Shown piece by piece: positions 35,380-38,472 of a stretch of DNA of 64,000 nt. Both the position numbers and the translations under genes were made by a program. Under the pieces are notes generated by a model. That model was not told where the DNA came from, did not search any database, and saw only the letters and a list, made by a program, of their open reading frames with translations. The DNA lies in contig CALXQJ010000002.1 of NCBI GenBank assembly GCA_944390575.1, forward strand, positions 186,001-250,000, read 5' to 3'. Source of the DNA: an uncultured Spirochaetota bacterium (lineage in GTDB: Bacteria > Spirochaetota > Brachyspiria > Brachyspirales > Brachyspiraceae). Numbering within the stretch: position 1 is the stretch's first letter; the number at the start of each line of letters is the position of its first letter.

Positions 35380-36333
35380 ATGAGTATCGGTGAAGAAATA
35401 TTAGTTTTTAGTGGAAGTGCTAATTATGAACTTTCTAAGTCTATCGCTAAATGTCTTGGTATTAACTTAGGTAATATGCAACTTCGTAGATTCGCAGATG
35501 GCGAAGTTTTTGTTCAAATAGATGAAACAGTTAGAAATAAAGATACTTATGTAATACAATCTACAGGTAGACCATCTAGTAATGAAAATTGGATGGAGTT
35601 ATATTGTATTATAGATGCTCTAAAAAGAGCAAGTGCTAAGCGAATTACAGCAGTTATTCCTTATTATGGATACTCAAGACAAGATAGAAAAAATGAACCA
35701 AGAGTTCCTATAACAGCTAAACTTGTTGCTAATCTTCTTACTACTGCTGGTGCGAATAGAGTGCTTGCATTAGAACTTCATGCATCACAGATACAAGGTT
35801 TCTTCGATATACCAGTAGATCATATGCTTTCTAAAAATGTGTTCTTAGATAAAATTTATAAAGATATAGATTTATCTAATGCTATTATAGTATCTCCTGA
35901 TATAGGGGGAGTAGGTAGATCTCGTTTTATTGCTAAAGCTCTTAATCTTGATATTGCTATCATAGATAAAAGACGTGATAGGGCTAATGAATGTGAAATA
36001 ATGAACATTGTAGGTGATGTAAAAGGAAAAGATGCTATTATTATAGATGATATTATAGATACTGGTGGAACTCTTATCAAAGGTATTAATGCTCTTAAAC
36101 AGGCTGGTATGAATAAAATATATGTTTTTGTAACTCATGCCGTTTGCTCTGGTGATGCTTATGAGAGAATTAATAGTAGCCCAGTTGATAAGCTTTATAT
36201 TACTGATAGTCTACAGGTAATGAAAGATAGACTTGGAAGTAAAATAGAGGTTCTTAGTGTGGATCAAGTTATAGCTGATGCTATAAAATGTATACATATG
36301 GAGCAGTCTATTAGTGTTCTATTTAATAATTAA
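35380..36333 (+). CDS. prs: Ribose-phosphate pyrophosphokinase (PRPP synthetase)
   Basis: Makes 5-phosphoribosyl-1-pyrophosphate from ribose 5-phosphate and ATP for nucleotide, His and Trp synthesis. Class I enzyme of 317 residues with FSGSANYELSKSIAKCLGI, the ATP-site AVIPYYGYSRQDRKNEPR, flexible-loop region and PRPP signature IIIDDIIDTGGTLI. His residues for metal binding appear in ALELHASQIQGFFD. It has the normal bacterial length and an AAGAG ribosome site. Together with rplY and pth downstream it forms the prs-rplY-pth cluster common in bacteria. Confidence 0.96.
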   Translation: MSIGEEILVFSGSANYELSKSIAKCLGINLGNMQLRRFADGEVFVQIDETVRNKDTYVIQSTGRPSSNENWMELYCIIDALKRASAKRITAVIPYYGYSRQDRKNEPRVPITAKLVANLLTTAGANRVLALELHASQIQGFFDIPVDHMLSKNVFLDKIYKDIDLSNAIIVSPDIGGVGRSRFIAKALNLDIAIIDKRRDRANECEIMNIVGDVKGKDAIIIDDIIDTGGTLIKGINALKQAGMNKIYVFVTHAVCSGDAYERINSSPVDKLYITDSLQVMKDRLGSKIEVLSVDQVIADAIKCIHMEQSISVLFNN

Positions 36334-36380: not shown

Positions 36381-36947
36381 ATGAGTTATACTATTAAGGC
36401 TTTACAAAGAGATACTAAAACTAAAAGTACTTCAAAAAAATTAATAAATGATGGATATGCTCTTGCTACTATGTATGGTAGAGAAAAAGAGTATTCTATT
36501 GCTGTTGAACTTAGAGAGTTTAATAAGGTTTTTTCTCTTGCAGGACAGCATGATATTATTACATTAGATATTGAAAATGATAAAACTAGAGAGGTTCTTG
36601 TTAAAGACTATCAAATAGATGGTATTAAAAGAACTATTAGACATATAGACTTCTATGAAATAGATAGAAATAAGAAAATCAAAACTAATGTTCATATACG
36701 CTTAGAGGGAACTCCTGAGGGTGTTCGCTTGAATGGTGGTATTATGGAACAAGTTGAGCATGTACTTCCTATTAGAGCACTTCCTGCTTCTATTCCTCGT
36801 GAAATTGTTATTGATGTTACTGACTTAAAAGTAGGTAGTAGTTTACATGTTAGCGACATCAAATTCCCAGAAGGTGTAGAGGCTCTTGGTGATAGTGCTA
36901 AGGCTATAGTGACAGTTGTAGCTGGTGCTGAAGAAGAAGCTAAGTAA
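36381..36947 (+). CDS. rplY: 50S ribosomal protein L25/general stress protein Ctc
   Basis: Binds 5S rRNA in the large ribosomal subunit; the long CTC form adds a second domain. Residues 1-95 are the L25 beta-barrel (KALQRDTKTKSTSKKL, MYGREKEYSIAVELREFNKV, DYQIDGIKRTIRHIDFYE). Residues 96-185 are the TL5/CTC C-terminal domain with RLEGTPEGVRLNGGIMEQVE and LPIRALPASIPREIVIDVTD. The total of 188 residues matches the CTC class rather than the short E. coli L25. It is 47 bases after prs and 38 bases before pth. Confidence 0.95.
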   Translation: MSYTIKALQRDTKTKSTSKKLINDGYALATMYGREKEYSIAVELREFNKVFSLAGQHDIITLDIENDKTREVLVKDYQIDGIKRTIRHIDFYEIDRNKKIKTNVHIRLEGTPEGVRLNGGIMEQVEHVLPIRALPASIPREIVIDVTDLKVGSSLHVSDIKFPEGVEALGDSAKAIVTVVAGAEEEAK

Positions 36948-36985: not shown

Positions 36986-37579
36986 ATGATGAAATTAGTT
37001 ATGGGGCTTGGCAATCCTGGCGAGGAGTATAAAAATCATAGACATAATGTTGGGTATATGATTTTAGATAGGGTTGCAAAGAGACTTAATGTAGATCTAA
37101 ATGTAAAAAAGAAGAAAACTGTTTTTGGTCGTGCAAAGCAGGGTAAAATAGAGTATTTGCTTCTTAAACCGCAAACTTTTATGAATCTTTCAGGTGAGGC
37201 TGCTTTATATATGGCTAGCTTTATGAAGATACTTGTTGATGATATTATTGTTATTTATGATGATATGAATATTCCTATTGGTAGTTTTAAAATTATTCCT
37301 TCTAGAGATGAGGATGATAATTCTAATGAACCTCGTGAGGGTTTAATTAAGCATAATGGAATAAAGAGTATAGAAGAATCTTTAAAAAGCGATAATTTTA
37401 CACGAGTAGCTGTTGGTATTGGTATGCCTGATGATGAGAATGATATTGCTGATTTTTTACTTTCTCCTTTTTCTAAGGATGAAAGAAAAAAGATTAGAGA
37501 TATTTCTGATAGTATTGTAGATGCTACTTGTATGGCTCTTTTTGAATCTCCTAAAAAAGCAAGTGAAGAGTATTCTTAA
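36986..37579 (+). CDS. pth: Peptidyl-tRNA hydrolase, copy 1 (divergent loop)
   Basis: Cleaves peptidyl-tRNA to free tRNA. Key residues of the E. coli enzyme are kept: Asn10 (GLGNPGEEY), His20 (NHRHNVG), Asn in FMNLSG, Asp in IYDDM and Asn in HNGIKS. However, the glycine-rich loop before HNG (GGGHGGHNG in E. coli) is replaced by about 11 extra, partly acidic residues: SRDEDDNSNEPREGLIKHNG. This loop lies beside the substrate cleft, so activity or specificity may differ. The 197 residues begin at ATG ATG. The stop is immediately followed by the start of a second pth gene. Confidence 0.9.
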   Translation: MMKLVMGLGNPGEEYKNHRHNVGYMILDRVAKRLNVDLNVKKKKTVFGRAKQGKIEYLLLKPQTFMNLSGEAALYMASFMKILVDDIIVIYDDMNIPIGSFKIIPSRDEDDNSNEPREGLIKHNGIKSIEESLKSDNFTRVAVGIGMPDDENDIADFLLSPFSKDERKKIRDISDSIVDATCMALFESPKKASEEYS

Positions 37580-38170
37580 ATGTCTAATTTATCTTCCAAT
37601 ACTAAATTGATAGTAGGACTTGGAAATCCTGGTGAGCAATATAAAAATCAGAGACATAATGTTGGATTTATTCTTTTAGATAAGATAGCTTCATATTTTT
37701 CTACTAATTTTGATAATAATAAAAAGAAATCATTATATTCAAGATTTAAGTATGATGGGAATGATATTATTTTATTAAAACCGCAAACTTTTATGAATTT
37801 ATCTGGTGAATCGGTTCTTTATGTGGCTAAATTCTATAATGTTTCTATAGACAATATTATTGTGGTATATGATGATATGGATATACCTTTTGGCTCTATT
37901 AAAATAAAAAAGTCTGGTAGTGCTGCTGGACATAATGGAATTAAGAATATAATAGCACAAATTCAAAGCGATAATTTTATTAGACTTAGAGTTGGAATTA
38001 GTAGACCTCCTGCTGGAAAACCTATTAATGATTATGTATTATCATCTTTTAGTAAATCTGAGAGAAATTCTATTGATAATGAGATATATTCTGATGTTTT
38101 AGATGCTATTAAAACTTTGATTTTTGATGGTATAGATATTGCACAGCAGAAATTCAATTCTAAAAAATAA
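37580..38170 (+). CDS. pth: Peptidyl-tRNA hydrolase, copy 2 (canonical)
   Basis: Second, tandem Pth. All motifs are standard: VGLGNPGEQYKNQRHNVGF, KPQTFMNLSGESVLYV, VVYDDMDIPFGSIKIK, the intact SGSAAGHNGIKNIIAQI loop and RLRVGISRPPAGKPINDYVL. The 196 residues match the family. The ATG directly follows the stop of copy 1 with no gap, so the two are probably translationally coupled. The two share the same layout, which suggests an old duplication. This copy is the likely housekeeping enzyme; the role of copy 1 needs a test. Confidence 0.94.
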   Translation: MSNLSSNTKLIVGLGNPGEQYKNQRHNVGFILLDKIASYFSTNFDNNKKKSLYSRFKYDGNDIILLKPQTFMNLSGESVLYVAKFYNVSIDNIIVVYDDMDIPFGSIKIKKSGSAAGHNGIKNIIAQIQSDNFIRLRVGISRPPAGKPINDYVLSSFSKSERNSIDNEIYSDVLDAIKTLIFDGIDIAQQKFNSKK

Positions 38171-38191: not shown

Positions 38192-38472
38192 ATGATTAAA
38201 ATAGTGGATAAAGCTCGTGTTTTAGAAAATAATATAGATAATTTTATTAATATATCAAAGACTTTAATAGAAGAAAGTAGAAAAGAAGAGGGGTGTATAT
38301 ATTACTCTCTTCATAAAAGTTTAGATGGTAAATATTTAACATTTATAGAAGAGTGGAAGTCTATGGAAGCTATAGACTATCATAAAACACAGAGCATTTT
38401 AAGTCTATAGTACCACAGCTACTTAATCTCATAGAAGGAGATTTTGATGCTGTATTATATGAAGAAGTTTAA
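38192..38472 (+). pseudogene. Antibiotic-biosynthesis-monooxygenase-like protein, frameshifted
   Basis: The frame from ATG 38192 (KIVDKARVLENNIDNFINIS, EEGCIYYSLHKSLDGKYLTF) is an ABM/YgiN-like ferredoxin-fold domain. It breaks at about base 38394, just where the family has a conserved H-x-x-x-x-HF. After the break another frame gives HFKSIVPQLLNLIEGDFD and ends LYEEV-stop at 38472, an ordinary C-terminus. One missing base near 38394 explains this. The gene is therefore either recently broken or mis-read; the change is not at a slippery tract. ABM enzymes act as small quinol or heme monooxygenases; this copy's substrate is unknown. It ends overlapping convergent lrgB by four bases. Confidence 0.72.

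Follow-up and report, generated by a model that had tools for sequence, protein, structure and literature searches.

A loop-less, rplY-linked peptidyl-tRNA hydrolase beside a canonical copy in Brachyspira, and the possible division of a two-function ancestor

Peptidyl-tRNA hydrolase (Pth) is treated as a single-function enzyme and an antibiotic target, and its catalytic histidine has been termed absolutely conserved (PMC8071115). The occurrence of two Pth genes side by side in an uncultured member of the Brachyspiraceae (Spirochaetota), one of them altered next to the active site, raises the question of what the altered copy does and why it is kept. We addressed this starting from a stretch of 64,000 nucleotides, referred to here as the window, in which the locus comprises the following features (the signature is defined below).

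35380–36333, + strand: prs, which we take to encode ribose-phosphate pyrophosphokinase; first in the conserved prs-rplY-pth order, as judged from the open reading frame and from same-order homologues elsewhere
36381–36947, + strand: rplY/ctc, ribosomal protein bL25; conserved upstream neighbour of the loop-less Pth
36986–37579, + strand: pth copy 1, 197 aa; resident Pth of the prs-rplY-pth operon, loop-less and signature-bearing
37106–37135, + strand: Lys-rich hairpin of copy 1, KKKKTVFGRA, residues 41–50; one half of the signature, which the dead Pths of other Spirochaetota also carry
37166–37231, + strand: hyper-conserved segment of copy 1, KPQTFMNLSGEAALYMASFMKI, residues 61–82; contains LYxASF, the other signature half, and the Asn68 equivalent
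37298–37351, + strand: acidic loop of copy 1, PSRDEDDNSNEPREGLIK, residues 105–122; replaces the Gly-rich segment (E. coli 106–112) before His113-Asn114
37580–38170, + strand: pth copy 2, 196 aa; canonical, with loop and catalytic residues intact and the signature eroded; presumed hydrolase
38192–38410, + strand: ABM-domain open reading frame 3' of copy 2; separate and frame-shifted in the window

Consistent with the original prediction of two complete Pth genes with zero spacing, both open reading frames were confirmed and the TAA of copy 1 directly abuts the ATG of copy 2. Both proteins score well above the cut-offs of PF01195 (176 bits for copy 1 and 224 bits for copy 2; Pfam cut-off 27) and of NCBIfam pth (TIGR00447; 160 and 202 bits, respectively; cut-off 100), and genome-annotation family models label both genes hydrolases. 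Copy 2 is canonical, as had been proposed, given its family match, catalytic set, Gly-rich segment and Arg133 (E. coli numbering), and across Brachyspira the catalytic residues, Lys105 and Arg133 are present in 24/24 copy 2 proteins together with an essentially whole Gly-rich segment. Copy 1 had been described as keeping Asn10, His20, the Asp and the HNG motif while exchanging the glycine-rich loop for a longer acidic segment, and this description is borne out, the protein having N10, H20, N67 (E. coli N68), D92 (D93), and H123 and N124 (H113 and N114). Set against Pth1 (PF01195/TIGR00447; E. coli 2PTH), copy 1 shares the fold and retains N10, H20, N68, D93 and N114, but has a longer acidic loop in place of the Gly-rich segment that contacts A76, has lost Arg133 and carries I/V at K105; Brachyspira further departs from the Pth1 norm in its second, canonical copy adjacent to the first, and families with parallel losses do so in that His20 is gone as well.

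The arrangement is characteristic of the genus. Exactly two Pths were found in 25 of 26 Brachyspira genomes, the remaining one, a fragmented assembly, giving no Pth match, and the copies are adjacent in every genome in which both could be read. Because all 25 Brachyspira genomes with a match carry the pair, it is neither a chance product nor a misread. The stop codon of copy 1 and the start codon of copy 2 overlap by 4 bp in nearly all of these pairs, which makes the zero spacing peculiar to the window genome. Three sister-genus genomes of the family and two order-level relatives each encode one Pth, in which the segment reads GGSDGGHNG. Far from being absent or degraded in other strains, copy 1 is present with intact catalytic residues in all 25 Brachyspira genomes: Asn10, His20, Asn68, Asp93, His113 and Asn114 (E. 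coli numbering) are invariant. In the same 25 proteins the Gly-rich segment before His113-Asn114 (positions 107–112 in this comparison) is replaced throughout, Arg133 is lost (Gly in 24, Ala in 1) and the Lys105 position is occupied by Ile or Val.

The replaced segment is one with a known role in the enzyme. In Thermus thermophilus Pth the equivalents of E. coli residues 111–114 touch the adenine and ribose of A76, and Ala100-Gly101 (E. coli 111–112), which contact A76, match the segment replaced in copy 1; the catalytic His, Asn and Asp are termed strictly conserved in the same work (PMC11994314). Among the matches listed, 58 non-spirochaete Pths, used as a background set and as alignment depth for fold predictions, are invariant for N10, H20, N68 and D93, have R or K at position 133 in 58/58 cases, and carry at least two Gly in the Gly-rich segment in 57/58. 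Loss of Arg133 was rejected as a sole mark of inactivity, many other spirochaetes' sole Pths having Tyr, Phe or Trp at this position; it is a weak criterion since even some sole PF01195 Pths of spirochaetes (e.g. L101, L102, L097 and L139) carry Tyr there.

Selection within Brachyspira acts very differently on the parts of the two proteins. The N-terminal half (N-half) has a dN/dS of 0.037 in copy 1 versus 0.11 in copy 2, while the copy 1 loop, which measures 17–20 residues with a net charge of −2 to −7 in every Brachyspira genome, has a dN/dS of ~1.1. AlphaFold2 predicts a confident Pth fold for copy 1 (pLDDT 93.8, pTM 0.91) with low confidence only at approximately residues 111–120, and a Foldseek search with copy 1 returned Pth structures as top matches (E about 1e-21 to 1e-20, TM 0.86–0.88), CRS2 also being found. 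The original prediction of a "rebuilt active-site loop" is less well supported, since length and acidity are maintained but the sequence is not; given this drift and the low AlphaFold confidence in the same place, it looks more as if the segment that binds A76 was lost than as if a precise new site was built. Comparison with the single Pths of the order yields a mirror image for the two copies: in the helix segment around Asn68, copy 1 is 95–96% identical to them and copy 2 61–62%, whereas in the loop the values are 16% for copy 1 and 61% for copy 2. On sequence grounds, such complementary divergence is what a single ancestral gene under two constraints would be expected to leave behind on being divided between two daughters.

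Loop-less Pths also occur outside Brachyspira. One pth per genome had been taken as the bacterial norm, which does not describe the Spirochaetota, where two PF01195 genes are present in many other families; in the other-family genomes whose positions were listed, these pairs are unlinked and never tandem. In genomes inspected from at least 12 further families (f6, f9, f17, f20, f28, f31, f33, f36, f38, f40, f41 and f46), the rplY-adjacent Pth lacks the Gly-rich segment and usually also His20 and Asn114 (hereafter dead copies), and the other copy is canonical and located away from rplY. In families f12 and f18 the loop is gone but His20 remains. Five dead-copy loci among the matches listed derive from Spirochaetota, Spirochaetes or Spirochaetae MAGs, one MAG being labelled Leptospiraceae. 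Across 561 pairs of genomes that have a dead and a working copy each, N-half identity is 70% for the dead copies versus 42% for their working counterparts, and is higher for the dead copies in all 561; the corresponding values are 65% versus 19% for the Lys-rich hairpin and 84% versus 48% for the helix, with the order reversed in the loop (28% versus 80%). Such tight conservation indicates that the dead copies are maintained by something besides hydrolysis.

Individual genomes add some variety to this picture. Genome G133 encodes three Pths (L196, L197 and L198), one canonical and two dead with the signature. L222 (G105) is the only dead resident Pth whose partner is a weak fragment match (E 9e-5); as the G105 assembly is ~92% complete, this partner could be absent or disrupted. 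Two further Spirochaetota Pths, L091 (G331) and L092 (G262), have a long low-complexity stretch inserted after the N-terminal part and before the Asn68 segment.

The association between loop and N-half was examined using a signature consisting of KKK in the hairpin and L[YF]xA[SA]F in the helix, a rule set after the first data set had been viewed. The signature is present in 70/70 loop-less copies (25 Brachyspira copy 1 proteins and 45 others) and in 0/99 loop-bearing Pths of genomes with two or more, the genomes in both counts being related and not independent, and it is found together with the loop in 17 of 55 sole Pths. These counts indicate that loop and signature co-occur only where Pth is alone. 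None of the 58 non-spirochaete Pths among the matches listed carries the signature. In a held-out test on 39 genomes whose second copies were previously uninspected, segregation of loop and signature was perfect in all 33 genomes with both copies read, these genomes again being related, and rplY adjoins 32/33 signature copies and 0/37 partners.

Phylogenetic analysis indicates that the loop-less state has more than one origin. In a tree built without the loop columns, copy 1 is nested within the single Pths of the Brachyspirales (96/84) and the dead copies form a clade of their own (100/99 for 14/15). The hypothesis that copy 1 and the dead clade share one loss of the loop was rejected (p = 0.0005), and the loop was thus lost at least twice. 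As a third origin, the loss in family f18 could not be told apart from that in the dead clade (p = 0.43). When whole-length sequences are used, copy 2 is placed outside the group that joins copy 1 with the single Pths; there is weak evidence against a clade that unites the two Brachyspira copies (p = 0.04, with p = 0.20 and 0.13 for the halves).

We posit, at somewhat better than even confidence, that an ancestral bifunctional Pth was divided, with a non-hydrolytic role staying with copy 1 and hydrolysis moving to copy 2. Copy 1 would be the original Pth of the prs-rplY-pth operon, and the Pth lineage of Spirochaetota appears to have once been dual, combining hydrolysis, which needs the Gly-rich segment, with a separable second role that is non-hydrolytic and tied to the KKKK hairpin and LYxASF helix of the N-half. 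In Brachyspira, a tandem duplicate, copy 2, would have kept the hydrolase features, while copy 1 would have retained the signature of the N-half but not the loop in which the 3'-terminal adenosine of the tRNA is held. The same split would have arisen independently at least one more time in other Spirochaetota, leaving a catalytically dead resident copy whose partner is an unlinked canonical Pth. In both cases the division would have followed the arrival of a second Pth in the genome. Copy 1 would accordingly hydrolyse peptidyl-tRNA poorly or not at all and copy 2 would be the working hydrolase. The retained role is perhaps to bind RNA, the ribosome or a partner in translation that is co-produced with bL25; contact with RNA or the ribosome is suggested by the basic nature of the hairpin and the constancy of the rplY neighbour.

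Pulling the other way is that all catalytic residues are kept in 25/25 copy 1 proteins, so that the chemistry could still be used. Copy 1 may then be a hydrolase of altered specificity: its catalytic residues and the part of the cleft that faces the peptide would be kept, but the part that grips A76 and the tRNA backbone would have been remodelled into an acidic one, so that a different leaving group or subset of tRNAs is recognised. We consider this unlikely, although it accounts for the invariance of N10, H20, N68, D93, H113 and N114 under strong purifying selection, and for the fact that the residues through which T. thermophilus Pth contacts the peptide (Asn9, Tyr14, His19 and Asn57) correspond to residues invariant in copy 1. 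A substrate-recognition element would be expected to be conserved, unlike the loop sequence, and the acidic loop occupies the site expected for the 3' end of the tRNA. Moreover, His20 was lost from the parallel copies of other families although they have the same N-half, from which it follows that the constraint on the N-half needs no catalysis. As far as sequence comparison goes, these parallel losses, in which His20 and Asn114 are gone too, point to a non-hydrolytic role more than to a new substrate. The earlier proposal that a second, diverged copy has a changed role gains from its universality in the genus and from the strong purifying selection on it, and its version invoking a new substrate is disfavoured. 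Retention of catalytic residues is also less telling in light of CRS2, a Pth-derived splicing factor for chloroplast group II introns that works with RNA and no longer has its ancestral enzymatic activity (PMC10226603). Like copy 1, CRS2 (1RYB/1RYM/1RYN) keeps the catalytic residues and lacks Arg133 in our alignment, and it is the best PDB sequence match of copy 1 by a narrow margin; it differs in keeping the Gly-rich segment and in acting on group II introns. By analogy, CRS2 is a precedent for catalytic residues persisting without activity, although their retention in copy 1 leaves room for a changed hydrolase. A CRS2-like function in intron splicing was considered for copy 1 and judged unlikely: the GIIM domain of group II intron maturases (PF08388) is absent from all 26 Brachyspira genomes, and the job of CRS2 hence does not fit copy 1.

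Two further readings fare worse. Adjacency of the genes in all Brachyspira, with the 4-bp stop/start overlap in nearly all of them, is what one would expect if the two proteins formed a heterodimer in which copy 1 served copy 2 in a regulatory or structural way, translational coupling keeping their amounts equal. Yet the loop-less and canonical copies are unlinked in other families, where the constant neighbour of the loop-less gene is rplY, and Pth is described as a monomer, which makes such a partnership improbable. Still less credible is that copy 1 is simply a redundant Pth of the ordinary kind, its loop free to drift once copy 2 covered the essential function: the loop does evolve as though unconstrained, but a redundant gene would not have persisted in 25/25 genomes while keeping an N-half better conserved than the one in the working Pth.

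We give about an even chance to the broader proposition that Pth in one part of the Spirochaetota is a two-function protein, joining peptidyl-tRNA recycling to a conserved non-enzymatic role linked to bL25 and translation that is strict enough for dead copies elsewhere in the phylum to evolve more slowly than the working enzyme, with loop-less copies having arisen at least twice independently, in Brachyspira by tandem duplication. If true, widespread Pths without an active site that are held more tightly than the working enzyme would expose a hidden second role of this protein, and the Brachyspira tandem pair would place the two roles in two genes that can be studied separately. In the library that we searched, neither Brachyspira Pth nor Pth pseudoenzymes were the subject of any paper, and the Leptospira gene yielded no useful information.

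The region 3' of copy 2 varies within the genus. Among the Brachyspira loci L003–L024, copy 2 continues in frame into an ABM-like C-terminal domain in most genomes (total ~293–301 aa), and the domain forms a separate overlapping open reading frame in a few. In the window it is separate and frame-shifted, and a different reading frame carries what is left of the domain.
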